NCBI GenBank assembly: GCA_018139225.1
Contig: JAGSNX010000003.1
Coordinates: forward strand, 496,001-560,000
Reading direction: 5' to 3'
Length of the DNA stretch: 64,000 nt
DNA from: Microvirga sp. SRT01
GTDB lineage: Bacteria; Pseudomonadota; Alphaproteobacteria; Sphingomonadales; Sphingomonadaceae
Part shown: positions 19,039-64,000 of the stretch, piece after piece
Numbering within the stretch: position 1 is the stretch's first letter
How the letters are laid out: each line of letters opens with the position of its first letter
Notes under the pieces: generated by a model
Seen by the model: the letters and a program-made list of their open reading frames with translations, nothing else
What the model was told of the DNA's origin: nothing
The model's database searches: none
Program-made: the position numbers and the translations under genes

Positions 19039-19617
19039 AGCGGGAGCTGGTCGGATCGACGCTCGGGCTGGGAGCATGGAACCGGCGCGGGGCATTTCGG
19101 GACGCCGGGCGGGGTTGATACTCATTCCCCTTGAACGGCGGGCGACGGCTCCAGCACCTCCGTGCTCCCGCGGAGGGGGGAGCCCAGTACTGGGTCCTCG
19201 CTTTCGCGCGGACACAGGACCGGTACGTGCCCGAAGGGGCGAGAACCCGTCGGTCTCGTCTTGTGAGGTACTCCTTTCCCTTCGCGGGGGCGCTGGTGGA
19301 GAGGTCGCGACCCAGTCCTCCTCCAAAGTGAACCGTTGCAGAACCTTCTACCGCCTCGGCGACCACCGGCGCAGTGGCATATCAGCGGTAATCGACTGAG
19401 AACGTTGCCCAACTGGACCCCGGCCTTCGCCGGGGTGGTGGCTTGGTGACAGGAAGTGGAGCTATCTCGCAACGATCCCTCTACGGGGCGGGAGGGAGGT
19501 CGGTTCGACCTCGCGCAATCAGATCGCGAGTTGTTGCGGTCGTCCTCGATTGGTCGAAGCGGCCGTTCCCACGAGCCACGTCGTCCGGGATCGAGGGAGC
19601 GGCATGACACCCCGGCG
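19039..19617. repeat. 579-nt non-coding region with palindromic repeats
   Basis: No gene is supported here. It contains CCCAGTACTGGG (19183-19194) flanked by GC-rich arms, the same 12-bp palindrome found at 63793-63804, and a perfect hairpin ACCCCGGC-CTTC-GCCGGGGT (19417-19436). These look like copies of a sphingomonad intergenic REP-type repeat. Between a plus-strand and a minus-strand gene, the hairpins may also act as terminators, although no T-run follows. Confidence 0.6.
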
Positions 19618-49126: not shown

Positions 49127-50407
49127 TCAGCCGCGTTGGGAGCGGGGCAGGCGGCGTTCGACCAGCAGCACGGCGGCACCGGCCAGGAGCAGGCACAGCG
49201 CCAGGAACAGCATCGGTGCCAGATCGCTGCCGGTATCGTCACGGATGCGGGGCACCACCGTCTGCGCGATGAAACCGCCGAGGTTGCCGACCGAGTTGAT
49301 CGCCGCGAACCCGGCGGCGGCGCCCGCCCCGGACAGGAAGCGCGGCGGAAGGGTCCAGAACACCGGCTGGCCGGAGAAGATCGCCGGTGCGGCGATGCAC
49401 AGCAGCGCGAACTTCAGCACCGCGCCGGGGACGATCACGCTCGCGACGAGGCAGACCGCCCCGATCAGTGCCGGACCGACGATGTGCCAGCGCGGGTCGG
49501 CGAAGCGCGCGGCGTGGCGCGGCACCCACCACAGCGCGAGCGCGACGAGCAGCCACGGGATGACGTTGAGGAAGCCGTTGACGGTATTCGACACGCCGAA
49601 GCCCTTCACGATCGTCGGGAGCCAGTAGCTGAGGCCGTAGGCGGCCAGCGGGAAGCCGAGATATGCACCGCACAGCATCAGCACGCGCAGATCTGCGAGG
49701 GCGCGTAACGGGTTGCCGTGCGCGACGATCCCCGCCGCGGCGCGTTCCGCCGCCAGCGTCTCCGCCAGCCAAGCCTTCTCCGCCGCCGGCATCCACGGCG
49801 CGTCCTCCGGCCCGCGCGGCAGCCAGCGCAGGACCGCGGGCACCAGCAGCAGAGCCGGAACCCCGGTGGCGAGGAACACCCACTGCCACCCGCGCAGACC
49901 CAGCGAGCCGTCGAGGTCGAGCAGCATGCCGCCGATCGCGGCGCCGACTGCGTTGGCGAAGGCGCTGGCGACCATGAACAGGCCGATCGCGCGCGCGCGG
50001 TGCGCCTGCGGGAACCAAAGGGTCAGGGCATACAGCACGCCGGGGAAGAACCCCGCCTCCGCCACGCCGAGCAGGAAGCGCAGCACGTAGAACATGGTCT
50101 TGTTCGGCGTAAAGGCGAGCAGCAGCGTGACGACGCCCCAGCTCGCCATGATTCGCGCGAACCACAGCCGCGCGCCGACGCGTTCGAGGACGAGGTTGCT
50201 CGGGATCTCGAACAGGCAATAGCCGATGAAGAACAGCGCTGCACCGAGCCCATAGGCGGCCTCGCTCAGCCCCAGGTCGCCGACCATCTGCAACTTGGCG
50301 TAGGACACGTTCTGGCGGTCGATATAGGCGACCATGTAGATCAGGCCGAGCAGCGGGATCAGCCGCGTCATCACGCGCCGGACGGTGCGGTCGCCCAGTT
50401 CGTCCAT
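49127..50407 (-). CDS. MFS transporter, anion:cation symporter family
   Basis: A 426-aa permease of the ACS branch of MFS (tartrate/galactonate/phthalate transporters). Twelve helices; hallmarks are YIDRQNVSYAKLQMVGDLGLSE, LFEIPSNLVLERVGARLWFAR and GVAEAGFFPGVLYALTLWFP. ATG 50407 follows AGAGGA. It lies downstream of the ExuT-like permease and uxuA on the same strand. Substrate probably a sugar acid. Confidence 0.88.
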   Translation of the reverse strand: MDELGDRTVRRVMTRLIPLLGLIYMVAYIDRQNVSYAKLQMVGDLGLSEAAYGLGAALFFIGYCLFEIPSNLVLERVGARLWFARIMASWGVVTLLLAFTPNKTMFYVLRFLLGVAEAGFFPGVLYALTLWFPQAHRARAIGLFMVASAFANAVGAAIGGMLLDLDGSLGLRGWQWVFLATGVPALLLVPAVLRWLPRGPEDAPWMPAAEKAWLAETLAAERAAAGIVAHGNPLRALADLRVLMLCGAYLGFPLAAYGLSYWLPTIVKGFGVSNTVNGFLNVIPWLLVALALWWVPRHAARFADPRWHIVGPALIGAVCLVASVIVPGAVLKFALLCIAAPAIFSGQPVFWTLPPRFLSGAGAAAGFAAINSVGNLGGFIAQTVVPRIRDDTGSDLAPMLFLALCLLLAGAAVLLVERRLPRSQRG

Positions 50408-50502
50408 CGTCCATCCTCTCGCCGTCTCTGGGGTCTCGCCGTCTTCGGCCCCTCGCCGTCTTGCCCCTTGTTCGGGTAATCGTCGGCGCGCGCAAGCCTT
50501 TG

Positions 50503-51813
50503 CTAGTCGTCGGAGGCCGGGACCTGCACCGCGGTCTCCAGGTTGGGGACGAGCAGGTGGACGAGCAGGAGGGCGACGAGGTAGGCGCTGCCGGCCCACA
50601 GGAAGACGGGGACGTAAGTGCCGACGGTTTCCAGCACCCGTCCCACATAGTTCGACATGATCATGCCACCGACTGCGCCCGCCGCGCCGCCGATGCCCAT
50701 CACGGAGGCGACGGAGGTGCGCGGGAAGGTGTCGGACACCATCGTGTAGAGGTTGGACGACCAGCCCTGATGCGCGGCGGCGGCGAGGCCGATGATCGCG
50801 ACGGCGGCGATCAGGCTCGACACGCTGCTGGCGAACACGATCGGCGTGACGAGGATGGCGGAGACGAGCAGTGCCAGCTTGCGGCCGGCATTGACGCTGT
50901 ACCCGCGCTTGATCAGCGCCGACGACAGCCAGCCGCCCCCGATGCTGCCGACATCCGCCAGCAGATACACCGCGATCAGCGGCGGGCCGAACGTCTTGAG
51001 GTCGAGGCCGTGCCGCTTGGCGAAAAAATCGGGCAGCCAGAACAGGAACAGGTACCAGACGGGGTCGGTCAGGAACTTGGCGACGACGAACGCCCAGGTC
51101 GCGCGGCGGCGGAAGAGCTGGCGCCATGGGATCGGCGCGGTGCCCGCGTCGTTATCCTGATCCGAGGTGATGTAGGCGAGTTCCTGCGCAGTGATATGCG
51201 GATGCTTTTCCGGCGCGCGGTAGAAAGCGAGCCATGCGACGAGCCATACGAAACCAAGCAGGCCGGTGATGAAGAACGCCGCCTGCCATCCGTAATTCAG
51301 CGCGATCAGCGGCACGACGATCGGCGTGGCGATCGCGCCGACATTGGCGCCGGCGTTGAGGATGCCGGCGGCCAGCGCGCGTTCTTTCTTCGGGAACCAC
51401 TCGGCGACCGACTTGATCGCGGCGGGGAAGTTTGCGGATTCGCCCAGCCCCAGCGCGAAGCGCGCCGCGGCGAACCCGCCGGGGCTGCGGACGAAGGCGT
51501 GGACCAGCGCGGCGAGGCTCCACACCGTGATCGCGGCGGCGTAACCGAGCTTCGAGCCGATCTTGTCGATGATCGGTCCGCAGGCGAGCAGGCCGATCGC
51601 GTAGGCGGCCTGGAACCAGAAGACGATCGTGCCGTAATCGATCTCCGACCAGCCGAGCTCGTTCTGCAACGTCGGCTTCAGGATGCCGATGACCTGCCGG
51701 TCGATATAGTTGATCGTCGTCGCGAAGAAGAGCAGCGCGCAGATCACCCAGCGGACGTTGCCGCCGGCCCGGGTCGGGGAGGGAGCGGCGACTGCCACGG
51801 TGGATCCGTTCAC
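50503..51813 (-). CDS. ExuT-like hexuronate MFS transporter
   Basis: A 436-aa MFS permease resembling ExuT (glucuronate/galacturonate:H+ symport): NYIDRQVIGILKPTLQNELGWSEIDYG, FAAARFALGLGESANFPAAIKSVAEWFP, and VWYLFLFWLPDFFAKRHG are near-canonical. GTG 51813 is chosen because GGGAGAG sits just upstream; a nearby ATG at 51817 is in another frame. It follows uxuA by 71 nt, so uronate import and mannonate dehydration are in one operon. Confidence 0.92.
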   Translation of the reverse strand: MNGSTVAVAAPSPTRAGGNVRWVICALLFFATTINYIDRQVIGILKPTLQNELGWSEIDYGTIVFWFQAAYAIGLLACGPIIDKIGSKLGYAAAITVWSLAALVHAFVRSPGGFAAARFALGLGESANFPAAIKSVAEWFPKKERALAAGILNAGANVGAIATPIVVPLIALNYGWQAAFFITGLLGFVWLVAWLAFYRAPEKHPHITAQELAYITSDQDNDAGTAPIPWRQLFRRRATWAFVVAKFLTDPVWYLFLFWLPDFFAKRHGLDLKTFGPPLIAVYLLADVGSIGGGWLSSALIKRGYSVNAGRKLALLVSAILVTPIVFASSVSSLIAAVAIIGLAAAAHQGWSSNLYTMVSDTFPRTSVASVMGIGGAAGAVGGMIMSNYVGRVLETVGTYVPVFLWAGSAYLVALLLVHLLVPNLETAVQVPASDD

Positions 51814-51884
51814 GCATACTCTCCCGGGCTGGTACCGCACGGTCCGCAATCGGCCGGTGCTTGTCGAAGCGTGTGGGCCACCGA

Positions 51885-53093
51885 TCAGGCTTCGACCGGA
51901 GAAGGGGCGGCAGACGCGCGCGCAGCGGTCGCATGGGCGATGCCGCGTTCCAGCCCGCGCAACTCCGCAAGACCGCGCATCCGGCCGATCAACGAGTATC
52001 CGGGCAGCGGCGTCTTCGACAGATCGTCGAGCATCTGGTGCCCGTGATCGGGCCGCATCGGGATCGACCGTCCCTCTCTGGTCTGCAAATCATGGATCGC
52101 GGCGACAAGCCCCACCATGTCGGCATTGCCCTCCAGATGCGGCGCTTCGTGGAAGGCGCCGCCCGGTTCGCGCTGAACGGAGCGTAGATGCAAAAAGCCG
52201 ATCCGGTCACCCAGGCGATCGATCATCCCGGCGAGATCGTTGTCGCCGCGCGCACCGAACGATCCCGCGCAGAAGCACAGCCCGTTGGACCGGTTGGGGA
52301 CCCGCCGGAACAGGGATGCGACGTCCGCCTCGGTGCTGACCACGCGGGGCAGACCGAACAGGGCGAATGGTGGGTCGTCGGGGTGAACGACGAGCTGAAT
52401 GCCGAGTTCGTCGGCGAGCGGGCACACCGCCTCCAGAAACGCGACATGGTTGGCGCGCAGGGTTTCCGGATCGATGCCGTCATATTCGGCCAGCGCCTGG
52501 CGGAATTGTTCGCTGGTGAACGCCTCCTCGCTGCCCGGAAGACCCGCGATGATCGTGCGTTCCAGCCGATGCCGCTCGTGCTCGCCCATCGCATGAAAGC
52601 GGCGAGCGGCACGGTCGATCAGGTCCGGGTCGTAGGATGCTTCGGCACCGGCCCGGCGGAGAATGTGGAGGTCGTAGACGGCTGCCGCCTCCAGCTCGAA
52701 CCGCAGGGCGAGCGCGCCGTCCGGCATCGTCCAGGCCAGGTCCGTGCGCGTCCAGTCGAGCACGGGCATGAAGTTATAGGTGACCGTGCGAATGCCGCAC
52801 GCGGCCAGATTGCGCAGGCTTTGTCGGTAGTGATCGATCAGCGCATCCCAACCGGGATTGCCGGTGGCACTGCGGGTCTTGATGCCCTCATGCACGGGCA
52901 AGCTCTCGACCACGGTCCAGTCGAGACCGGCCGCCTCGATCTCGGTCTTGCGGGCGACGATCGCGTCGGTGGACCAGATGTCGCCATTGGGAATCTCGTG
53001 CAAAGCCGTCACGATGCCGGTGGCGCCGGCCTGTCTGATGTCGCGCAACCTGACCGGATCAGACGGGCCGAACCAGCGCATCGTTTCGGTCAT
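51885..53093 (-). CDS. uxuA: mannonate dehydratase UxuA
   Basis: Converts D-mannonate to 2-keto-3-deoxygluconate in glucuronate catabolism. The 402-aa protein starts [20 protein letters not shown] and continues [16 protein letters not shown], as in UxuA. Metal and catalytic residues are in [26 protein letters not shown] and [10 protein letters not shown]. Two ATGs in a row (53093/53096) precede it. The oxidoreductase uxuB is not in the window; the genes that make mannonate or use KDG must be elsewhere. Promoter-region elements are at 53160-53210. Confidence 0.95.
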
Positions 53094-53159
53094 CATCACC
53101 GTCTGGGCGTCCTCTCTGCCGTGGCGGCCGTTCCGCCGCTCACCTCCGCACAAGTCTAG

Positions 53160-53340: not shown

Positions 53341-56300
53341 TCAGAACTGAAAATTGGCGGCCAGCGCGTAGGTCCGGCCAAAGTAGGCGGTGTACAAAGG
53401 GTCCTTGCGATTGGTGTCGACGGTCAGGCGGTTGGTCTCGTTCGTGATGTTCGACACCTCGGCGATCAGCTTGATATTGTCGCTGATATTGTAGGATGCG
53501 GAGGCGTCGACGAAGATCGAACTGGCGTTGGACGTCGAGTCCGCATCGACCGATCCGCTGGGCACCGCGGTCAGGAATGCGGCGCGGTAGTTGACGGTGG
53601 AGCGGATGCTGAACCGGTTATCCTCGTAATAGAGCGTGCCGCTGGCGGTTTCCGGGGACAGGCCGACGAGCGGCGCGGTGCGGGTCAGCGTCGACGAAAT
53701 GACATAGTCGATGTTCGACCGCACGCGCGTGAAGTTGGCGAGCGCGCCGAAGTTGCGCAGCACGCCGGGCAGGAAGGTGAACGGCAATTGCACGTTGACC
53801 TCGAACCCGCGCAGCGGCCCGCCCGGCGTGTTGTTGCTGCGCTGGACGGTGAACTGGTCGGTCGGCCGCAACTGCGTGCCGTTCAGCAAGGTCAGCGGCA
53901 GGCCGATATCCTGGAACGCCACCGACTGGCTGGTCGTCTGGATGTAGGTTTCGATGTTCTTGTAGAAATAGGCGACCGAGATCAGCGAGCCGGGCGCGAA
54001 ATACCATTCGAGCGAGGCGTCGAAGGTGTTGGCGCGGATTGGGTCGAGGAACGGGTTGCTGAACGAGGCCGTCTGGATCACCAGATTGGCGGAGCCAGCA
54101 GGGATCAACTGACCGTAGGAGGGTCGCGACATGACGCGCGCGGCGGAGGCGCGGGCGATGAGTTCGGGCGTGATGTCCAGCGCCAGATTCATCGACGGCA
54201 GCCAGTCGTCATATTTGCGGCCGACGTTGGAGATCACGAAGCGCGACGGATACAGCGATCCCGCCGGAGCCGCCGTGGTGATCGGGCCATAGGTGTCGAG
54301 ATTGGTGTGGACGTAGCGCACGCCGGCATCGCCGCGCAGCTTGAACGGGAGGATGTCCTCGGTGTTGAACTTGGCCATCAGATAGCCGGAACTGTATTTC
54401 TCCTCGACGCCGCCGAACGTGCCCTTGGCGCATTCGACGTTGCAATAGACATAGCTGTCGAGGCCGACCGCCGAGCGGAACTTGTCCGGATCGATCGAGA
54501 CGAAATCCTGTAGCTGGCCGTCGAGGTTCTTGCCGACGCCGCTGGTGACGAACGAGAAGTCGGCGATCGAGACGCCGGCGGGCAGCGCCAGCGGCGTGTT
54601 GGTCGCCAGTTGCCGTTCGCGCGCGGTGTATTTGTTGGTCCGGTACTGGCCGCCGAACTGCATCGTGAAGTTGCGCGCCGCCTCCCACTCGCCGTTCAGT
54701 TCGAACGTCTTGCTGGTGATCGTGTTGCGGCGAATGAAGTTCGACAGCTGACCCCGCTGATCGCCGTTCGACAGCGGCGCACCGTAGCCGAACAGCGCCG
54801 GGTTGGTCGTGTCGATGCCGTAGTCGATCTTCGGAATGTCGGCATTGTCGCGGAAGTCGATGCCCCAGTTGCGCGTGTCGTTCGAGTCGATCGCGACCTG
54901 AAGGCGGTTAACGTCGAGGCGCGACTGGTTGATGCCGGCCAGACCGAACACGCGGAACGTGTCGGAAAAGCGGTGATCGACGTTGAGATTGGCCTGCTTG
55001 TATTTGGACTTGAACTTCTCGTCCTGCATTTCGGAACGCAGGTCGACACCGTCGAACAGGCCGTGGATCAGCGAGCCGTTCTCATCGACCTCGATATCGC
55101 GCACCGACGTCAGCGGCTGGCCGTTGTTCGAGATGGCGCGGCCGAACGAGCGGGCATCAAACATCGTGTCGAGCCGCGCGACCTTGAAGCGCGAATACAG
55201 GCCGTCGACCGAGATGTCGGTGTTGTCGCTCGGCTTCCATTGCAGCGTTAGCGATCCGGCGAGGCGTTCCTGGTTCTGGCTGCTCTTCACCGGGCGCGGC
55301 AGGCGAGGCAGGTAGACGCCGCCGCCGGGACGCCCGTTCACGCCGGTCCGGGCCATGATGTAATCATAGGCCGCGGCGGTGCCGGTCCGCGGGTTGCCGG
55401 TGCTGCAATTGTTCGCGTCCGCGCCGATCGCGACGCCGTTCGGCTGGGTGTAGCCGGGGACGGGGCTGGTCGCGGGCGCGCCGCGGAAGGTGTAGCCGAC
55501 CGGCGTACAGAAGGGGAAGATCACGCCGGCGTTGGCGGTTCCGGCCGGCTGCGCCAGACCGTAGACCGTAGTGGGCACGACATCGACCGCCGAATACGCG
55601 TATTCGTCGATATGCCGCTTCGAATAGGCGACGGTGCCGAGGATACCGAACGTGTCGCCCAGCTTCTTCGACACAAGGGCGGAAAGGCGAGGGTCCACGT
55701 CCTTGCGGATGTCGTTGTAGATCCCACGCGCGGTGCCGGAGAAGATGAAGTCCTTCTTCTGGTCGAACGGCTTGGGCGCGCGCAGGTCGACGGTCGCGCC
55801 AAGCGAGCCTTCCTCCACATCCGCCGACAGTGTCTTGCGCACGGACAGCGACGAGAAGATCTCGGTGGGGAAGGTGACGAAGTCGAACGAACGGCCGGTG
55901 GCGACGCCGCCGCGGATGTCGCTGCCGCTGACCTGCGACACGCCTTCCATGCCGTTGATGCGGACGCGGGTAAACTGTGCGCCGAGACCACGGACGGAGA
56001 TGTTGCGACCCTCGCCGCCGTCGCCGCGGGACAGGGCGACGCCGGGAATGCGCTGCATCGATTCGGCGAGATTGGAGTCCGGGAACTTGCCGATATCCTC
56101 CGCAACGATGCTGTCGATCGCGGCGGTTTCGTTGCGCTTTTGATTGAGCGCGTTGTTCAGCGCGGCGCGGAAGCCGGTGACGACGATATCGCTGTTCTCG
56201 CCGGTGTCGGTCACTTGCGGCGGCGCGTCCTGATCGTTGGTCGCAGCGGCGGGAGACGGGGTCTGCGGCGTCAGGGCCGCGCCGGCATCCTGCGCGAACG

Positions 56301-56376
56301 CCGGCGTGGCCGCGATCAGGCTCAACAGGCTGATCGAGACGTGAAGGTGGCGCTTATAGCCGTGCTGACAGGTCAA
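53341..56376 (-). CDS. TonB-dependent receptor of the uronate locus
   Basis: A 1,011-aa outer-membrane receptor. The TTG at 56376 is preferred: AAAGGGAGAGGG lies directly upstream and the leader TCQHGYKRHLHVSISLLSLI-ATPAFAQ follows; an ATG ten codons earlier lacks a ribosome site. The plug starts with DIVVTGFRAALNNALNQKRN and has MQRIPGVALSRGDGGEGRNI; the barrel ends ALAANFQF. The plug type (QKRN, EDIGKFPDSNLAE) is that of oligosaccharide receptors in sphingomonads and Caulobacter. A terminator follows. Upstream operators link it to the GntR regulator. Confidence 0.92.
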   Translation of the reverse strand: MTCQHGYKRHLHVSISLLSLIAATPAFAQDAGAALTPQTPSPAAATNDQDAPPQVTDTGENSDIVVTGFRAALNNALNQKRNETAAIDSIVAEDIGKFPDSNLAESMQRIPGVALSRGDGGEGRNISVRGLGAQFTRVRINGMEGVSQVSGSDIRGGVATGRSFDFVTFPTEIFSSLSVRKTLSADVEEGSLGATVDLRAPKPFDQKKDFIFSGTARGIYNDIRKDVDPRLSALVSKKLGDTFGILGTVAYSKRHIDEYAYSAVDVVPTTVYGLAQPAGTANAGVIFPFCTPVGYTFRGAPATSPVPGYTQPNGVAIGADANNCSTGNPRTGTAAAYDYIMARTGVNGRPGGGVYLPRLPRPVKSSQNQERLAGSLTLQWKPSDNTDISVDGLYSRFKVARLDTMFDARSFGRAISNNGQPLTSVRDIEVDENGSLIHGLFDGVDLRSEMQDEKFKSKYKQANLNVDHRFSDTFRVFGLAGINQSRLDVNRLQVAIDSNDTRNWGIDFRDNADIPKIDYGIDTTNPALFGYGAPLSNGDQRGQLSNFIRRNTITSKTFELNGEWEAARNFTMQFGGQYRTNKYTARERQLATNTPLALPAGVSIADFSFVTSGVGKNLDGQLQDFVSIDPDKFRSAVGLDSYVYCNVECAKGTFGGVEEKYSSGYLMAKFNTEDILPFKLRGDAGVRYVHTNLDTYGPITTAAPAGSLYPSRFVISNVGRKYDDWLPSMNLALDITPELIARASAARVMSRPSYGQLIPAGSANLVIQTASFSNPFLDPIRANTFDASLEWYFAPGSLISVAYFYKNIETYIQTTSQSVAFQDIGLPLTLLNGTQLRPTDQFTVQRSNNTPGGPLRGFEVNVQLPFTFLPGVLRNFGALANFTRVRSNIDYVISSTLTRTAPLVGLSPETASGTLYYEDNRFSIRSTVNYRAAFLTAVPSGSVDADSTSNASSIFVDASASYNISDNIKLIAEVSNITNETNRLTVDTNRKDPLYTAYFGRTYALAANFQF

Positions 56377-56457
56377 AACCCTCTCCCTTTCGCTGGCTGG
56401 CCGCATTTGCTGCGGTCCGGACCGTGCTCCCGGCAGTAGCTTTTTGCGCTGCCTTAT

Positions 56458-56634: not shown

Positions 56635-57381
56635 CTAGACGGAGCGCCTGGCAAGCGCGTGCCGGCGCTGTGTGGCTTCTGCCCGTGCGCGCTCCACAGC
56701 TTCCGTTTCGGTTACGTCGAGCAAATGGTCGATGACGCGGGCGAGATGGTCGCGCATGGCGTTGCGGGCGTCGACGGGTGAGCGCGCTTCGAGTGCGCTG
56801 AGGATGCGGCCGTGTTCGGCCATGCGGCTTTCGGTGCCGAGGCTGCCGGCCTTGAGCAGCACTTCGCGCGCCAGCGGGGAGCGGAAACGCATGTCCCAGA
56901 AATCGGTGACAGCGGCGATGATGACGGCGTTGCCCGTCGCCTCCGCGATGGCGATGTGGAAGCGGCGGTCGGCGTCCTCCGCGGCGCTGTTGTCCGGCTG
57001 CTGCATCTGCGCGAGCAATGTCCGCAATTCAGCGAGTTGCGCGGCATCGATCTCCGTCGCGGCGACCGCGGCGACCTCGCCCTCCAGCAGGCGGCGGGCC
57101 TCCGTGATCTCGAACGCGCCGATATCGAGTTCGCGGTCCGCGTCGGCGGTGCCGGTGGCGAGCACGAACACGCCGGAACCTTTGCGCGCCTCGACCATGC
57201 CCTGCATTTCGAGGGCGATCATCGCCTCGCGCACGGTTGGGCGGCTGACCTTGAAGCGTTCGGTCAGGTCACGCTCGGCGGGCAGGCGCGATCCGACCGG
57301 AAACAAGCCTGCGGCGATGTCGGCCATGATCGCGTCGACGATCTTGCGATACAGCTTGCCGCCACTCTCTGTCCTGCGCAT
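56635..57381 (-). CDS. FadR/UxuR-type GntR regulator
   Basis: A 248-aa repressor-like protein: GntR winged helix at about 8-75 (KLYRKIVDAIMADIAAGLFP, GSRLPAERDLTERFKVSRPTVREAMIAL) and an all-helical FCD effector domain (about 90-225), as in UxuR/ExuR/FadR, with likely metal/effector His in RRFHIAIAEATGN and EHGRILSALEARS. ATG 57381 is favoured because AAGGAC precedes it. It lies between the TBDR and the divergent DUF1080/oxidoreductase operon. Likely effector: a uronate or keto-sugar acid. Confidence 0.9.
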   Translation of the reverse strand: MRRTESGGKLYRKIVDAIMADIAAGLFPVGSRLPAERDLTERFKVSRPTVREAMIALEMQGMVEARKGSGVFVLATGTADADRELDIGAFEITEARRLLEGEVAAVAATEIDAAQLAELRTLLAQMQQPDNSAAEDADRRFHIAIAEATGNAVIIAAVTDFWDMRFRSPLAREVLLKAGSLGTESRMAEHGRILSALEARSPVDARNAMRDHLARVIDHLLDVTETEAVERARAEATQRRHALARRSV

Positions 57382-57430
57382 TCTGGGTCCTTGCATTCGC
57401 TCGCGAACGTGTAGCTGAAAGCTGCTTTGC

Positions 57431-57583: not shown

Positions 57584-59041
57584 ATGAGGATGATCCGTGG
57601 AATTGCGGTGCTGGCGGTGGCGGCCACGCCCTTGGTCGCGATGACGGCCCTCGTTGCGATGATGGCGGTGCCCGCGGCGGCTCCCGTTCAGGCTGCCGGC
57701 GTTTCCGAGAAGACTGCCCCGTGGCGCGACGTGACGCCGCGTTCGGGCCTCGCCGGATGGCACGCGGTCGGCGGCAAGGCGACCTACACGGTGGCGGACG
57801 GCGAGCTCGTCGGGCGCGCGGAGATCAGCAAGACCAACAGCTGGCTGGTGTCGGACGCGCAGTATGGCGACTTCATCATCGAATTCGACGCGAAGACCGA
57901 TCCGATGCTCAATTCCGGGGTGATGATCCGCGGCCAGAGCCGGCCCGATTATCGCAACGGCGTCGTGTTCGGCTATCAGGCGGAGATCGACCCGTCCAAG
58001 CGCGCCTGGAGCGGCGGACTGTACGACGAGCAGCGTCGCCAGTGGCTGTACACGCTGGGCCGTAACGAAGCGGCGCGACGGACCTTCCGCTCCGGCGACT
58101 GGAACCACTACCGCGTGGAGGCGATCGGCAACCGGCTAAGGACGTGGGTGAACGGCGTGCCCGCCGCCGATGTGGTCGACGATGTCGATGCGCGCGGCTT
58201 CATCGCGTTTCAGGTTCACGCCATTCCCGACGCGGACGCCGCGCGCCATCCGGAGGCGCGGTTCCGCAACGTCCGGATGATTACCGACCGGCCGGCACGC
58301 TTCGCGATGCCGGAGACGGGGCCCGCGACGGAAATCGAGCAGCAGGGCTGGCTGTCCAACCGCCTGTCGAGCGGCGAGCAGCGCGCCGGGTGGAAGTTGT
58401 TGTGGGACGGGAGGACCTCGGCCGGCTGGCGCAGCGCCAAGGCGGCGAGCTTTCCCAAAAAGGGCTGGTCGATGGCCGGTGGCACGCTGAGCGTCGAGGG
58501 CGCGAACGGGGCGGAGTCGACCAATGGCGGCGACATCGTCACGACGCGCGATTACCGGAATTTCGAGCTGTCGGTGGACTTCCGCCTGACCGAGGGCGCC
58601 AACAGCGGCATCAAGTACTTCGTCGATCCGAACCTGTTGAAGGGTGACGGATCGGCGATCGGGCTGGAATATCAGTTGCTCGACGATGCGCGACATCCCG
58701 ACGCGAAGATGGGCCGGGACGGTAACCGTACGCTTGGGTCGCTGTACGACCTGATTACCGCGCGCAACCTGTCCGACCCGGACAGTCCGGGCAAGCGCAT
58801 CAACCCGCCCGGCGAGTGGAACCGCGCCGTCATCGTCGTGCGCGGCCAGCATGTCGAGCATTGGCTGAACGGCTTCAAGGTCGTCGAGTACGAGCGCGGC
58901 TCGCCCGCATTCGGCGCGCTGGTGGCGCAGAGCAAGTACGCGAAATGGCCGAATTTCGGCGAGTGGGAGAAGGGGCCGATCCTGTTGCAGGATCACGGCA
59001 ACCACGTCGATTTCCGCTCGATCAAGATACGCGAACTCTAA
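57584..59041 (+). CDS. tandem DUF1080 protein (3-keto-glycoside hydrolase-like)
   Basis: A 485-aa exported protein with two concanavalin-like DUF1080 (PF06439) domains. Signal peptide about 1-38. Domain 1 at about 45-235 (SWLVSDAQYGDFIIEFDAKT, NSGVMIRGQS), domain 2 at about 262-485 (GWKLLWDGRTSAGW, NFELSVDFRLTEGANSGIKYF). DUF1080 proteins have recently been shown to cleave 3-keto-disaccharides or 3-keto-glycosides. Single-domain forms are usual; the duplication is less common. It heads the operon with three Gfo/Idh/MocA oxidoreductases. Confidence 0.88.
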   Translation: MRMIRGIAVLAVAATPLVAMTALVAMMAVPAAAPVQAAGVSEKTAPWRDVTPRSGLAGWHAVGGKATYTVADGELVGRAEISKTNSWLVSDAQYGDFIIEFDAKTDPMLNSGVMIRGQSRPDYRNGVVFGYQAEIDPSKRAWSGGLYDEQRRQWLYTLGRNEAARRTFRSGDWNHYRVEAIGNRLRTWVNGVPAADVVDDVDARGFIAFQVHAIPDADAARHPEARFRNVRMITDRPARFAMPETGPATEIEQQGWLSNRLSSGEQRAGWKLLWDGRTSAGWRSAKAASFPKKGWSMAGGTLSVEGANGAESTNGGDIVTTRDYRNFELSVDFRLTEGANSGIKYFVDPNLLKGDGSAIGLEYQLLDDARHPDAKMGRDGNRTLGSLYDLITARNLSDPDSPGKRINPPGEWNRAVIVVRGQHVEHWLNGFKVVEYERGSPAFGALVAQSKYAKWPNFGEWEKGPILLQDHGNHVDFRSIKIREL

Positions 59042-59054
59042 AAGGGGATGGGAC

Positions 59055-60368
59055 ATGCTTGACCGTCGCACGATGATGACGGGCGCCGGCGCGGCGCTGG
59101 GCATCGCGATCAGCGCGCGCAGCTATGCGCAGATCAAGGGCGCGAACGATCGGCTCCGCGTCGCGGTGGTCGGCGTCAACGGCCGCGGGCAGGCGCATAT
59201 GAGCGCCTTTACGAAGCAGCCGAACGTCGAGATCACGCATCTGGTCGATTGCGACTCCGACGTGCTCGCCAAGCGCGCGTCGACATTCGCGGCGAAGGGC
59301 AATCCGCGGATCAGGACGGAGGCCGATTATCGCCGGCTGCTCGACAGGAAGGCGGTCGACATCGTCACCGTCGCGACCCCCGATCACTGGCACGCGAAGG
59401 TCGCGATCGACGCGATGGATTCGGGGCGGCATTGCTACATCGAAAAGCCGATCGGCATCGCGCCGGCGGAGGGCGAGGCGCTGATCGCGGTGCAGAAGCG
59501 CACCGGCCGCATCTTGCAGGTCGGCAACCAGCAGCGCAGCAGCCGCGAGACGCAGCAGCTCCGCGCGCTGGTGCAGGCGGGCGAACTGGGCGACGTGTAC
59601 GAGGCGCAGACCTGGTATGCGAACAACCGCAAGTCGATCGGCACGGGCAAGGAGGTCGCGCCGCCCGCGAACCTGAACTGGGACATGTGGCAGGGGCCGC
59701 GCCCGCGCGGGCCGTACCGGTCGAACCTGGTCCATTACAATTGGCACTGGTTCTGGAAGTACGGTACCGGCGAGATCTGCAACAACGCGATGCATGAGCT
59801 GGACGTGGCGCGCTGGTTGATGGGCGTGACCTATCCGAACACCGTGTCGGCGCGCGGGGCGCGGCGCTTCTATCAGGACGACGATTGGGAGATGTACGAC
59901 TCGCTCGCGCTCGACCTGATCTACGACAATGATCGGGCGATCCGGTGGAACGGGCAAAGCTGCAACGGGCAGCTGACCTATGGCCGCGGGCGCGGCGTGC
60001 TGCTGCTTGGTACCAAGGGGTCGGCGGTGGTCGATCGCAACGGGTTCGAGCTGTACGATCTTGCCGGCAAGTCGATCCGGCAGGTGATGGCGCCCGCCAG
60101 TTCGGAGACGACGGGTACGGTCGGGGAGGGGGCGCTGGACGTGTACCACGCCGCCAATTTCCTCGACGTGATCCGTGGCCGGTCGAACGCGCTCGCCTCC
60201 CCGATCGCGGAGGGGCATATCAGCACGACGCTCTGTCACCTCGGCAACATGGCGTACCGCACGAAGAGCGTGCTGACCGTCGATCCCGCGACCGGCAAGC
60301 CGACCAGTGCGGAGGCGATGAAGCTGTGGTCCGTGGACTATCAGCCCGGCTGGGAGGTCAAGGCCTGA
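59055..60368 (+). CDS. exported Gfo/Idh/MocA oxidoreductase 1
   Basis: A 437-aa NAD(P)-dependent sugar oxidoreductase with a twin-arginine leader (DRRTMMTGAGAALG, cleaved after SYAQ). Rossmann motif VAVVGVNGRGQAH near 35-47, canonical EKP in CYIEKPIGI near 135, then the C-terminal alpha/beta sheet domain. Exported members of this family (for example Zymomonas glucose-fructose oxidoreductase) carry their cofactor through the Tat system. In 3-keto-glycoside loci such enzymes oxidise the sugar C3. It follows DUF1080 by 13 nt. Confidence 0.9.
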   Translation: MLDRRTMMTGAGAALGIAISARSYAQIKGANDRLRVAVVGVNGRGQAHMSAFTKQPNVEITHLVDCDSDVLAKRASTFAAKGNPRIRTEADYRRLLDRKAVDIVTVATPDHWHAKVAIDAMDSGRHCYIEKPIGIAPAEGEALIAVQKRTGRILQVGNQQRSSRETQQLRALVQAGELGDVYEAQTWYANNRKSIGTGKEVAPPANLNWDMWQGPRPRGPYRSNLVHYNWHWFWKYGTGEICNNAMHELDVARWLMGVTYPNTVSARGARRFYQDDDWEMYDSLALDLIYDNDRAIRWNGQSCNGQLTYGRGRGVLLLGTKGSAVVDRNGFELYDLAGKSIRQVMAPASSETTGTVGEGALDVYHAANFLDVIRGRSNALASPIAEGHISTTLCHLGNMAYRTKSVLTVDPATGKPTSAEAMKLWSVDYQPGWEVKA

Positions 60369-60382
60369 CGCCGGTTGCGATC

Positions 60383-61231
60383 ATGACGCCGACCGCGCCT
60401 CCCACGCTGACCAGCACCGGCATCGCGTGCTTCTTCGCGATGGGGACGCGCGTGGAGCTGCACCGCTTCGGTCCCGGCGACGAGGATGCGCTGATGCTGG
60501 CGCAGCGGGCGATCGAGGCGGTGGACGACGCGCTGACGATCCACCGGCCGTCAGCGGCGACGGCGCTGAACGAGGCGCTGCTGGCGGGGCGGGAGGTGGC
60601 GGTGGACGATCCGGTGCTGTTCGACGCGCTAATCGAGATCGATGCGGCGCAGGGACTGACGCTGGGGCTGTTCGACCCGACCGCCGATGCGCAGCGGGCG
60701 ACGGGATGGCGCGACGTTCGGATCGATGCGGTGGCGCGGCGGGTGGCGGTGACGCGACCGGTGGCGCTGGATTTCGGCGGGTTCGGCAAGGGCTTCGCGC
60801 TCGACCGGGCAGCGGCGGCGTTGCGGGCGGCGGGCGTGTCGTCGGCGCTGCTGTCGGCGGGCGAAAGTTCGATCGTGGTCGTGGGCGAGCATCCGCTGGG
60901 TGGCGGCTGGCCGTTCGCGATCCCCGATCCGCTGCGGCCGGAGCGCGAACTGGTCGAGGTGGAACTGAACGACGAGGCCATGTCGATCTCGTCCACCGTC
61001 GGGGCGGGGACGCTGGCGCCGGACCGGGCGGCGATGATCCGGCCGGGTGACGCGTCGGTCGTCAGTGCGGCGCGCTGTGCCGTCGTTATCGACCGCAGCG
61101 GATCGCACGCGGAGATGCTCAGCACCGCGCTGATCGTCGCCGCCGACGACGAGGTCGCGCGCCTGACGGGCGGCGCGCGGCGGTTCCTGTTCGACCTTGC
61201 CCCCGTAGAATCAGCCAGGATGTGTGTGTGA
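60383..61231 (+). CDS. apbE: ApbE-type FAD:protein FMN transferase
   Basis: A 282-aa flavin transferase. ApbE enzymes attach FMN covalently to Thr/Ser of target proteins (typically D-x-[ST]-G-A-[ST] sites). Family motifs: FFAMGTRVEL near 20, LDFGGFGKGFALDRAAA near 132, SAGESSIVV, SISSTVGAG, and EMLSTALIVA near the end. The usual signal/lipobox is not obvious, so location is uncertain. It is embedded between two oxidoreductases and overlaps the next start (TGATG). No obvious flavinylation target was seen in the operon. Function in this context is unknown. Confidence 0.85.
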   Translation: MTPTAPPTLTSTGIACFFAMGTRVELHRFGPGDEDALMLAQRAIEAVDDALTIHRPSAATALNEALLAGREVAVDDPVLFDALIEIDAAQGLTLGLFDPTADAQRATGWRDVRIDAVARRVAVTRPVALDFGGFGKGFALDRAAAALRAAGVSSALLSAGESSIVVVGEHPLGGGWPFAIPDPLRPERELVEVELNDEAMSISSTVGAGTLAPDRAAMIRPGDASVVSAARCAVVIDRSGSHAEMLSTALIVAADDEVARLTGGARRFLFDLAPVESARMCV

Positions 61232-62493
61232 TGACTGACAAGGATTTCGACCTGACGCGGCGGTCGTTCATCGACCGGGTGCTGATGGCCACGGCGGGCG
61301 CGGCGATGTCCGCGGCGACGCCGTGGGCCGCAATGGCGGCTGGGGCGCAGACGCCGGGCACCGGCAAGGTGCGGCTGGGCGTGATCGGCACGGGCGATCG
61401 CGGTCGTGCGCTGATCCAGAATATCGGCAAGACGCGCAACTGCATGGTCGCGGCAATCTGCGACACCTATGCGCCCAACATCGTCAAGGCGCAGCAATGG
61501 GTGCCGGCGGGCACCCCGACCTTCGCCGATCATCGCGCGATGCTGGACGCCAAAGGGCTGGACGCGGTCGTTATCGCGACGCCGCTGAACAGGCACGCGC
61601 AGCACAGCATGGATGCGTTCGACGCCGGCCTGCATGTCTGGTGCGAAAAGGCGATGGCGCGGACGATCGCCGATTGCGGCGCGATGGTCCGCAAGTCGCA
61701 GGACAGCCGCAAGGTGCTCCAGATCGGGCACCAGCGCATGTTCCACCCGACCTACCTCAACGCACTGCGCCGCGTGAAGGCGGGGGAGATCGGCACGATC
61801 ACGCAGATCCGCGCGAGCTGGCACCGCAACAACAGCTGGCGGCGACCGGTGCCGGCGGACAGCAACGACCGCCGCATCAACTGGCGGTTGTACCGCGAAA
61901 GCTCCGCCGGATTGATGACGGAGCTGGCGACTCACCAGCTTCAGGTCGGCAACTGGTTCCTTGATGCGGTCCCGACGCGCGTGCTTGGTTCCGGCAGCAT
62001 CTGTTATTGGAAGGACGGGCGCGAGGTGTACGACCATGTCGCGCTGATCTACGAATATGCGGGCGGGCGGAAGTTCATCTACACGTCGCTGCTCAACAAT
62101 GCGCGTTACGGCTGCGAGGAGCAGATCCAGGGCAGCAAGGGGTCGATCGAACCTGAACTCGGCCGCATCTATCAGGAAATTCCGCCCAAGACGCTGGCGC
62201 TGCAACGGATGCAGGCGGACGTGAAGCGCGGGCACAAGCGCACCGTGCCGATCGGCGGCGCGACGTGGTTCCCGGAACTGCCCGTCACCACCCCCGGCGA
62301 CTCGCTCGGCTGGGGCGAATATGACGAGACGATGCTCCAGTTCGAGGGGTTCGGAGAGGCGGTGCGATCGGGCAGGCCGCTGCCGGGGCTGTTGTATCAG
62401 GCGTATAATGCCAGCGTCGCGTCGCTGCTGGGCGAACAGGCGATGGACAAGGGCGAGGCGCTGACCTGGCCCACCGGCCTCGTGACCATTTGA
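61231..62493 (+). CDS. exported Gfo/Idh/MocA oxidoreductase 2
   Basis: A 420-aa oxidoreductase with a classic Tat motif (LTRRSFIDRVLMATAG, cleaved near 37). Rossmann motif LGVIGTGDRGRAL near 50; the EKP motif reads CEKAM, keeping the catalytic Lys. Domain 2 has ESSAGLMTELATHQLQVGNWF. Candidate starts are GTG 61222, GTG 61228 and ATG 61231; ATG 61231 is used. Probably acts on a related sugar or on the opposite direction of the same redox step. Confidence 0.88.
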   Translation: MTDKDFDLTRRSFIDRVLMATAGAAMSAATPWAAMAAGAQTPGTGKVRLGVIGTGDRGRALIQNIGKTRNCMVAAICDTYAPNIVKAQQWVPAGTPTFADHRAMLDAKGLDAVVIATPLNRHAQHSMDAFDAGLHVWCEKAMARTIADCGAMVRKSQDSRKVLQIGHQRMFHPTYLNALRRVKAGEIGTITQIRASWHRNNSWRRPVPADSNDRRINWRLYRESSAGLMTELATHQLQVGNWFLDAVPTRVLGSGSICYWKDGREVYDHVALIYEYAGGRKFIYTSLLNNARYGCEEQIQGSKGSIEPELGRIYQEIPPKTLALQRMQADVKRGHKRTVPIGGATWFPELPVTTPGDSLGWGEYDETMLQFEGFGEAVRSGRPLPGLLYQAYNASVASLLGEQAMDKGEALTWPTGLVTI

Positions 62494-62507
62494 GAGGATC
62501 TGCGATC

Positions 62508-63665
62508 GTGACCGATTCCAACCGCCGCGCGATACTGGGCATGGGGCTGACCGCCGGGCTCGTCGGGTTCGCCGCCGATGCGCTGGCGCAATCCACGACG
62601 CGGGGCGACGCGCCGACCGAAAGCGCGGCGGCGCGACCGGCACCGGAGGCGAAGTACCGCGTCCCGTTCGCGGTGATCGGGATGGATCACAACCACATCT
62701 ATGGCATCACCGATGCGATCATCCGCGGCGGCGGCGTGTTGACCAGTTTCTATGCAACCGATCCGAAGCAGATCGCGATGTTCCGGAAGCGGTATCCGGG
62801 CGCGACGCTGGCGCGCGGCGAGGACGAGATTCTGGCTGACAAGCGGATCAAGCTGGTGTGCAGCGCGGCCGTCCCCAGCCTGCGCGCACCGCTCGGCATC
62901 CGGGTGATGAAGGCGGGCAAGGACTATCTCAGCGACAAGGCGGCGGTGACGACGCTGGCGCAACTGGCGGAGGTGCGGCGCACGATCAAGCAGACCGGGC
63001 GCAAATACGGGATCATGTATTCGGAACGGCTGGAGGTGCCTGCCGCGGTCATGGCCGGGCAGATGGTGCATGACGGCGCGATCGGACGGGTGATCCAGAC
63101 GGTCAACCTCGCCCCGCATCGCCTGTCCGCGCCCACCCGGCCCGACTGGTTCTGGGACCCGGCACGCAATGGTGGCATCCTGACCGATGTCGGTAGCCAT
63201 CAGGCCGACCAGTTCGTCTATCTGACCGGCAGCAAGCGCGCGCATGTCGTCGCCTCCCAGACCGGCAACTTCGCGCATCCCGATCATCCGAAGTTCGAGG
63301 ATTTCGGCGACATGGTGCTGAACGGCGACGGCGGCACCGGCTATGTCCGCGTCGACTGGTTCACGCCCGACGGCCTGTCGACCTGGGGCGACGGACGGCT
63401 CTTCATCCTCGGCACCGAAGGGTACATCGAGCTGCGCAAATATGTCGATATCGCGGGCCGGCCGGGCGGCAACCACCTGTTCATCGCCGACCGCAAGGGC
63501 ATGCGCTACATCGACTGTTCGAAGGTGCCGCTGCCGTTCGGGCCGCAATTCGTGAACGACATCGTCGAGGGCACGTCGGTGGCGCAGGATCAGGACGGTG
63601 CGCTGCTGGCGGCCGAACTGGTGCTGACCGCCGAGGCGAAGGCGACGCGCGCCATCGCGGGGTGA
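62508..63665 (+). CDS. exported Gfo/Idh/MocA oxidoreductase 3 (atypical)
   Basis: A 385-aa member of the family with a twin-arginine leader (NRRAILGMGLTAG, ending ADALAQ). The dinucleotide loop is unusual: VIGMDHNHIYG instead of GxGxxG, and the EKP motif is replaced by SDKAAV, retaining Lys. The C-terminal sugar domain (GGILTDVGSHQADQF) is intact. GTG 62508 is preceded by AGAGGA. It may use the cofactor differently or serve a different reaction from its two neighbours. Confidence 0.85.
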   Translation: MTDSNRRAILGMGLTAGLVGFAADALAQSTTRGDAPTESAAARPAPEAKYRVPFAVIGMDHNHIYGITDAIIRGGGVLTSFYATDPKQIAMFRKRYPGATLARGEDEILADKRIKLVCSAAVPSLRAPLGIRVMKAGKDYLSDKAAVTTLAQLAEVRRTIKQTGRKYGIMYSERLEVPAAVMAGQMVHDGAIGRVIQTVNLAPHRLSAPTRPDWFWDPARNGGILTDVGSHQADQFVYLTGSKRAHVVASQTGNFAHPDHPKFEDFGDMVLNGDGGTGYVRVDWFTPDGLSTWGDGRLFILGTEGYIELRKYVDIAGRPGGNHLFIADRKGMRYIDCSKVPLPFGPQFVNDIVEGTSVAQDQDGALLAAELVLTAEAKATRAIAG

Positions 63666-63893
63666 CCGGCAGGCGAGAGCATGATGGCGTGACGTTGGTT
63701 CAACCCGTCGGTTCGCCCGGAGCGTGCGGGAGCAGGTCGGTACTTATCCCCTAGGACAGGAAGCGGGTCATGGGTCCCCGCGAAGGCGGGGACCCAGTAC
63801 TGGGCTCCCGCCTTTGCGGAAGCACATGCGATTGTCGGCGGCATTGCAGGAAATCCTTGACGAGCTCGAACGTCGATCGACTTGAGCCGCCGT
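63666..63893. repeat. intergenic REP-like palindrome (second copy)
   Basis: A GC-rich repeat with CCCAGTACTGGG at 63793-63804, flanked by CCCGCGAAGGCGGGG (63778-63792) and a related arm (TCCCGCC...GCGG). The 12-bp palindrome is identical to that at 19183-19194. It lies between convergent genes and may aid termination. No gene is seen in this stretch. Confidence 0.65.
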
Positions 63894-64000
63894 TCACGCC
63901 AGTTGTCGCGGGACCCAGCGGACGAACGCTTCCGGCCATAGCGAGCCCGGTTGCGTATCGGGGAGCTGCACGCCGAAACCGTGGCCGCCGCTTTGCAGGA
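63894..64000 (-). CDS. C-terminal end of an acetylxylan-esterase-like hydrolase (partial)
   Basis: A minus-strand frame enters from the right edge and stops with TGA at 63896-63894. The visible 34 residues contain LQSGGHGFGVQL, the catalytic-His motif of the same esterase family as the 45.9-kb gene (GGHGFGMYP), and end FVRWVPRQLA. Its bulk lies outside the window. It is probably part of the same carbohydrate locus. Confidence 0.7.
   Translation of the reverse strand, partial: LQSGGHGFGVQLPDTQPGSLWPEAFVRWVPRQLA

Follow-up and report, generated by a model that had tools for sequence, protein, structure and literature searches.

The locus described here lies in a stretch of 64,000 nucleotides, hereafter the window, from the 4.03 Mb genome of Microvirga sp. 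SRT01 (Alphaproteobacteria, Sphingomonadaceae; assembly GCA_018139225.1, contig JAGSNX010000003.1, positions 496,001 to 560,000). Five plus-strand genes run head to tail from 57584 to 63665 with small gaps or overlap and encode, in order, a tandem DUF1080 protein, a first Gfo/Idh/MocA oxidoreductase (MocA1), an ApbE-like protein, and two further proteins of the Gfo/Idh/MocA family (MocA2 and MocA3); the ATG of MocA2 overlaps the stop codon of the ApbE-like gene (Table 1). Open reading frames (ORFs), exact translations, Pfam matches and leader counts thereby bear out a preliminary description of this DNA, which had named a double DUF1080 gene, an ApbE and three MocA genes with twin-arginine (RR) leaders as consecutive. 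We propose, with a probability of about 0.48, that these genes constitute a horizontally shared cassette for the extracytoplasmic cleavage of sugars by way of C3 oxidation, together with a cytosolic ApbE-fold protein dedicated to MocA2, itself exported by the twin-arginine translocation (Tat) route. Judged by sequence, the sugar pathway is less unusual than the ApbE-fold protein, which appears leaderless in both phyla that carry it, His-less in Sphingomonas, and tied to one exported Gfo/Idh/MocA enzyme.

Table 1. Genes of the operon and of the divergent minus-strand set, in window coordinates.
Feature	Position	Strand	Length and matches
Tandem DUF1080 protein (3-keto-disaccharide hydrolase family), predicted exported	57584..59041	+	485 aa; two PF06439 stretches, 274.6 bits
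MocA1, Tat-type Gfo/Idh/MocA oxidoreductase, closest to glycoside 3-dehydrogenases of the BT2158/DgpA type	59055..60368	+	437 aa; PF01408
ApbE-fold protein, predicted to be cytosolic, with other residues at the catalytic His and Asp positions	60383..61231	+	282 aa; PF02424, 83 bits vs curated cut-off 25.6
MocA2, Tat-type Gfo/Idh/MocA oxidoreductase with GGAT345W as candidate site of modification	61231..62493	+	420 aa; PF01408
MocA3, Tat-type protein, Gfo/Idh/MocA C-terminal domain, non-canonical Rossmann motif	62508..63665	+	GTG start, 385 aa; PF22725
GntR/FCD regulator, divergent to operon, nearest ExuR/UxuR models (below cut-off)	56635..57390	-	Pfam and NCBIfam models
TonB-dependent receptor (TBDR), TonB-Xanth-Caul subfamily	53341..56406	-	TIGR01782, 632 bits vs 310
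UxuA mannonate dehydratase, genome's only copy	51885..53105	-	TIGR00695, 474.8 bits vs 199.55
Major facilitator superfamily (MFS) transporter, nearest galactonate-transporter model (below cut-off)	50503..51849	-	TIGR00893, 251.2 bits vs 395

The named close relatives of the source genome are Sphingomonas, on which ground its genus is called Sphingomonas here, and within that genus the gene set recurs as a unit. Searches of 295 genomes of the genus with the ApbE-like protein (E <= 1e-10) and with MocA2 (E <= 1e-100) each found matches in 63 genomes, 62 of which are common to both; in the ApbE-only genome (G109) the match is weak (2e-13) and concerns a different ApbE, and in the MocA2-only genome (G272) MocA2 is cut by the contig start. 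Approximately 20 kb was fetched around the genes in 54 of the 62 shared genomes, leaving out G013, G042, G181, G228, G242, G264, G266, and the cassette of G293. The order MocA1-ApbE-MocA2 holds in all 54 loci and DUF1080-MocA1-ApbE-MocA2 in 53, so that the conserved synteny which the preliminary description had proposed as a check is found, and it extends into Bacteroidota (see below). MocA3 follows closely in 38 loci, completing a five-gene operon; in four loci it is 2.6-2.9 kb distant, and it is also present in six more that have unusual gaps or lack the DUF1080 gene. Every MocA orthologue carries an RR pair in its first 25 residues (MocA1 54/54, MocA2 54/54, MocA3 48/48; 156 in total), and the N-terminus is hydrophobic in 52 of 53 DUF1080 orthologues. 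The most divergent member, L090, has the second DUF1080 domain only (269 aa). At 60% identity or more, the TBDR accompanies the cassette in 51 loci, the GntR regulator in 37, UxuA in 27, and the MFS transporter in 26; seven other conserved neighbour clusters, each in six to eight loci, look by eye like household genes or a spurious frame. The co-occurrence and order of the gene set are not due to chance.

Wider sampling revealed a patchy distribution. Neither MocA2 (E <= 1e-60) nor a MocA2-family profile (E <= 1e-40) matched any of the other 397 genomes when 398 genomes sampled from the phylum were searched; at least six of these are Sphingomonas, and scoring took the best few first-look candidates per genome. 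Among 385 genomes of the class, a tandem DUF1080 protein was found in the source genome itself and in one distant genome (45%), the latter with no MocA or ApbE match nearby. Scans of viral contigs yielded no relatives, and a search of the plasmid collection with query P0003 yielded no match. Near-full-length tandem DUF1080 proteins do occur in three records of that collection, all from Bacteroidota and all plasmids as opposed to chromosomes. The Persicobacter psychrovividus plasmid carries DUF1080-MocA-ApbE-MocA in the same order, its MocA1 and MocA2 being 42% and 44% identical to those of the window, and the Persicobacter sp. JZB09 plasmid carries the same DUF1080-MocA1-ApbE-MocA2 order. On a Bacteroides finegoldii plasmid the set is rearranged into MocA2, a small protein, a further MocA with just 31% identity to MocA1, a double DUF1080, ApbE, GH115, a hypothetical gene, and GH88. 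Given its patchiness, in one genus plus Bacteroidota, this distribution suggests horizontal transfer, in whichever direction it may have run.

The plasmid records also reveal which protein the ApbE travels with. An ApbE lies in the locus of all four records that have a MocA2 homologue (E <= 1e-50). MocA1 homologues (E <= 1e-40) occur in 11 records, two of them the Persicobacter cassettes, and at the remaining nine loci, which lack MocA2, no ApbE match falls within 4.5 kb (less at record ends); the difference between 4/4 and 0/9 corresponds to a Fisher p of 0.0014. No ApbE match was found at any of four single-domain DUF1080 loci (L102, L103, L118, and L119), nor with a distant MocA2-like protein of Granulicella (27% identical to that of Spirosoma). 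Therefore, ApbE associates with MocA2.

By family, the enzyme classes fit 3-keto-glycoside chemistry, which favors the oxidation and cleavage steps of the pathway drawn in the preliminary description. DUF1080 proteins include a 3-ketotrehalose hydrolase, and in Caulobacter one such gene matters for lactose use, its product being the proposed agent of 3'-ketolactose cleavage (available parts of PMC9007349); residues 47-485 of the window protein align to PDB 4jqt (E 3.1e-151). The best-scoring NCBIfam model for MocA1 is NF058561, BT_2158_fam (E 7.7e-40; 136.9 bits, below the cut-off of 750), and BT2158 is a periplasmic glycoside 3-dehydrogenase according to the excerpted PMC11300592. Structure matches of MocA1 are PDB 8tdf, 8tdh, and 7xr9 (DgpA), and it has a GVNGRG-type motif together with an EKP motif that is kept in 54/54 orthologues; MocA2 has a GTGDRG-type motif and EKA. 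MocA3 has a GxDHxH-type motif in place of GxGxxG in its orthologues, DKA or DKP, a Rossmann domain below the Pfam cut-off (21.9 vs 24), and nearest structures (PDB 3u3x and 2p2s) neither of which bears a specific name. Because of this motif and the sub-threshold score, the assignment of MocA3 as a third oxidoreductase using nicotinamide adenine dinucleotide (NAD) is less certain.

The cassette as we propose it would operate as follows. The TBDR would bring a glycoside into the periplasm, where MocA1, with NAD(P) tightly bound, would oxidise it at C3; the tandem DUF1080 protein would then cleave the 3-keto-glycoside by elimination and hydration, and MocA2 and/or MocA3 would reduce or epimerise the keto-sugar, giving the hydride back. 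The monosaccharide may enter the cell via the MFS transporter and, if it is a hexuronate, feed UxuA. Meanwhile, the ApbE-like protein would remain cytosolic and act on MocA2 during folding and cofactor uptake, before Tat export. A 3-keto pathway with a sugar isomerase or epimerase was also considered and set aside, none of the nine scanned genes being of that kind (UxuA has a TIM-barrel match).

His257 of Vc ApbE is reported to be absolutely conserved, and its H257G substitution nearly abolishes transfer (PMC5655446, in the part available); Ser241, His257, and Asp285 are described as conserved residues of the catalytic centre (PMC12052999, likewise an excerpt). Across 53 Sphingomonas orthologues the His257 position is occupied by Ala (43), Pro (9), or Val (1, in the frame-shifted L089), and by His in none; the Asp285 position is Glu in 52/52 aligned orthologues, with one gap; and the Ser241 position and the D-x-G-x-x-K-G positions are kept in 53/53. 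The L090 copy (45% identity), excluded from these counts by a 50% identity filter, likewise has no His at the catalytic position and Glu for Asp. No conserved replacement His is found in that segment, although 12 of the 53 have a His there whose location varies. Glu likewise stands at the Asp position in the three Bacteroidota cassette ApbEs; two of them keep His in its column, and the third has a His one column off.

An export or lipoprotein signal is typical of ApbE proteins, though not universal. A clear export leader was not found in the ApbE-like orthologues by a simple hydrophobicity mark applied to start codons chosen by homology: within residues 1-40, KD(12) >= 1.6 is reached by 3 of 53 (median 0.90), and the window copy is borderline, with 1.61 over its first 60 residues. 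The operon is thus not wholly exported. With neither a clear leader nor the catalytic His and Asp, and with zero PF04205 (FMN_bind) matches in the genome, the earlier idea of a working periplasmic flavin transferase is not supported. AlphaFold models computed from four-row alignments were too poor to use for either the ApbE-like protein (pLDDT 41.3) or MocA2 (pLDDT 34.3). The ancestral role of the ApbE was probably covalent attachment of flavin mononucleotide (FMN). Because the catalytic His is gone, the Sphingomonas protein may instead be a transferase that works by altered chemistry, or an assembly factor that binds flavin or a dinucleotide.

If FMN were attached to MocA2, a C-terminal loop would be the candidate site. 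It reads PIGGATWFP in 53 of 54 orthologues and PIGGRTWFP in one, and in the three Bacteroidota cassettes AGTSW, GGSSW, and GGPSW, a shared xGx[T/S]W pattern. On the Spirosoma oryzicola plasmid NZ_CP089540.1 (L111:5884-8198), at a beta-N-acetylhexosaminidase locus, a Tat-type Gfo/Idh/MocA protein 33% identical to MocA2 has a textbook ApbE motif, VDGVTGATI, in the same C-terminal region, and the gene immediately after it encodes a canonical ApbE whose N-terminus includes a hydrophobic stretch. The alignment places this DGVTGAT several columns off the GGAT of MocA2, and none of the 829 ORF proteins predicted from the retrieved genus loci (345,450 residues) contains the strict motif [DS][GA]x[ST]GA[TS]. 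In light of these loop motifs, the Spirosoma pairing, and the absence of the strict motif from the genus loci, a flavinylated MocA is likely in Spirosoma and flavinylation of MocA2 itself is possible. When the operon proteins were scanned with [DNS][GA]x[ST][GAST], the most frequent matches were DGRTS in DUF1080 (49/53) and DGGTG (28/48) and DGLST (11/48) in MocA3, none with a GA[T/S] core.

These residues and loops bear directly on a first alternative, namely, that the ApbE-like protein is a still-active FAD:protein FMN transferase (FAD, flavin adenine dinucleotide) that has Glu for Asp and a different residue serving as base, and that flavinylates either MocA2, at GGAT345, or some other product of the operon while its target is still cytosolic, ahead of Tat export. 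The PF02424 score far above its cut-off, the kept Ser241 and D-x-G-x-x-K-G positions, the His residues of the Bacteroidota versions, the persistence of the loop from Sphingomonas to the three Bacteroidota cassettes, and the Spirosoma pair would all be in keeping with it, as would the cytosolic ApbE that is needed for flavinylation of a soluble fumarate reductase (PMC12052999, in the portion available). We nonetheless regard it as unlikely, since the catalytic His is missing from all 53 orthologues and L090 with no conserved substitute, GGATW lacks the usual first residue of the motif, which in its strict form is absent from the genus loci, and DGVTGAT does not align onto GGAT.

A bolder extension would make MocA2-type proteins a class of covalently flavinylated sugar oxidoreductases, in which a cytosolic ApbE puts FMN on the C-terminal loop before Tat export and the Sphingomonas transferase has been rebuilt without the canonical His. 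The modified loops would be GGAT345W here, xGx[T/S]W in the Bacteroidota cassettes, and DGVTGAT in Spirosoma, where the ApbE is probably membrane-anchored. We hold this to be slightly more doubtful again; in a weaker form, MocA2-type enzymes would descend from covalently flavinylated Gfo/Idh/MocA enzymes. No description of covalently flavinylated Gfo/Idh/MocA enzymes was found in the open-licence literature among the matches listed, nor any relevant open-licence paper on ApbE with MocA or with 3-keto chemistry (the latter judged by title).

Several observations weigh against a shared cassette with a dedicated ApbE partner. Among the Bacteroidota MocA proteins compared there is no clear MocA3 orthologue (best 27% over 104 residues), and MocA3 was not found near the cassette in 6 of the 54 Sphingomonas loci. 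Few plasmid records entered the comparison, and some of them are related: Persicobacter and Runella each contribute two, a single Parabacteroides strain supplies two plasmids, and Spirosoma oryzicola, whose ApbE lies about 12 kb from its MocA1 homologue, counts in both groups. UxuA falls within the fetched 20 kb or so in only 27/54 loci. Of the five proteins, the ApbE-like one evolves fastest (median identity 63% vs 76-84%), and in L091-L094 its gene contains a repeat-like stretch inside an open frame, with 254-314 bases between matching halves that look palindromic by eye; split matches suggest the same insertion in G042, G181, and G293. In L089 both the DUF1080 gene and the ApbE are broken, perhaps through assembly error, in a genome rated 88% complete.

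The insertions and the broken copy would also suit a passenger that is losing function, and the second alternative is accordingly an ordinary 3-keto-glycoside locus in which a degenerating ApbE-like gene is held by operon position, a reading that the loss of the catalytic His would also suit. Its median dN/dS is the highest of the five genes (0.39 vs 0.19-0.23 for the other four; 866 common pairs, simple Nei-Gojobori count), yet still well below 1. The ApbE-like gene is constrained, less than the other four, with near-invariant stretches such as ESS and HPLGG; it is present and co-linear in 54/54 loci, and the same cassette exists in another phylum. We consider the passenger explanation improbable.

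The operon is flanked by the divergent minus-strand set of Table 1, in which the TBDR, UxuA, and GntR regulator named by the preliminary description are all found, together with the MFS transporter; the GntR and UxuA starts were chosen by us inside longer ORFs. That description had also envisaged a uronate-containing glycan, a suggestion which remains weak. In its favor, UxuA gives a single match in the genome and the models nearest to the regulator are those of ExuR and the Uxu operon regulator; the regulator scores far below both cut-offs (133.5 vs 396 and 112.3 vs 442, respectively), and UxuA is present in only half of the loci. A separate locus (L117:5423-16204, genome contig C5) encodes UxaC, a mannitol-dehydrogenase-family protein, and GH67, and GH115 is absent from the source genome. 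Because UxaC, the dehydrogenase-family protein, and GH67 are encoded elsewhere and UxuA only here, the window UxuA would complete glucuronate use, without showing that the cassette substrate is a uronide.

The separate placement of the UxaC locus also suits a third alternative, in which the MocA enzymes act on a glycoside without uronate through a closed hydride cycle like that of DgpA or GH109, with flavin and uronate irrelevant and UxuA a mere neighbour. DgpA, which MocA1 matches, oxidises glycosides with a 3-oxo-sugar (3-oxo-glucose) as acceptor (PMC11239390, in part), and GH109 works by elimination chemistry (PMC10628242, in part); the MocA enzymes could therefore cycle bound NAD without an outside acceptor, which competes with a need for flavin. 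This scheme is as improbable as the passenger explanation, given that the genome's only UxuA lies at this locus, that the Bacteroides version adjoins GH115 and GH88, and that the ApbE association is left unexplained.

Beyond the annotated set, a second MFS-like transporter appears by eye to follow the first on the minus strand, at about 49127-50485. On the other side, the next minus-strand gene (L007:14895-15947, reaching window 63894-64000) reads as an alpha/beta-hydrolase esterase-like protein with an RR leader of its own. A REP-like imperfect palindrome lies just downstream of the operon at 63769-63828, with inexact one-arm copies at 19191 and 47474; its arm has four matches in the window against 0.27 expected.

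Gfo/Idh/MocA enzymes are common in 3-keto-glycoside loci. A close parallel is BT2156-BT2160 of Bacteroides thetaiotaomicron, which similarly combines a DUF1080 hydrolase with a periplasmic Gfo/Idh/MocA glycoside 3-dehydrogenase. There, no ApbE is mentioned for the pathway in the available parts of PMC9007349 and PMC11300592, whereas here an ApbE-like partner is present, DUF1080 is in tandem, MocA2 and MocA3 are of other types, and MocA1 scores 136.9 against the 750 bits of BT_2158. Caulobacter, another alphaproteobacterium, likewise pairs periplasmic C3 oxidation with DUF1080 as proposed hydrolase (PMC9007349, in part); its dehydrogenase is the membrane-bound LacABC, in contrast to the Tat-exported MocA proteins and ApbE-like partner of the window. 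In the protein fold, the glucose-fructose and aldose-aldose oxidoreductases of Zymomonas are further relatives, MocA2 matching both and MocA3 the latter; we know of no DUF1080 or ApbE partner for either.

ApbE flavinylation systems share with the cassette an ApbE-family gene beside a redox protein, and include orphan ApbEs with DUF2271, a known ApbE setting (eLife 2021, PMC8238504, in part). The second ApbE of the genome (L108:9567-12536, contig C2), with its DUF4198, DUF2271, and PepSY_TM-like neighbours and, by eye, a receptor-like ORF nearby, fits that orphan kind. The cassette protein differs from such systems in being predicted cytosolic, with catalytic residues replaced, in a genome without FMN_bind. 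The orphan-ApbE survey was restricted to genes for which a signal or lipidation site was predicted, and its main text, as available, does not name MocA, Gfo, or DUF1080 (PMC8238504); leaderless ApbE genes of the present type would thus fall outside it.

In this branch of the ApbE family the catalytic His is lost, yet the protein is conserved. To our knowledge, little is understood of how exported Gfo/Idh/MocA enzymes manage their bound NAD(H) once they are outside the cytoplasm, and an ApbE-fold partner co-inherited across two phyla is a specific candidate for cofactor assembly or electron exit. Were MocA2-type enzymes indeed covalently flavinylated, a tethered FMN would pass electrons from bound NADH to the respiratory chain outside the cytoplasm, and periplasmic NAD-dependent glycoside oxidation could therefore run without free NAD.

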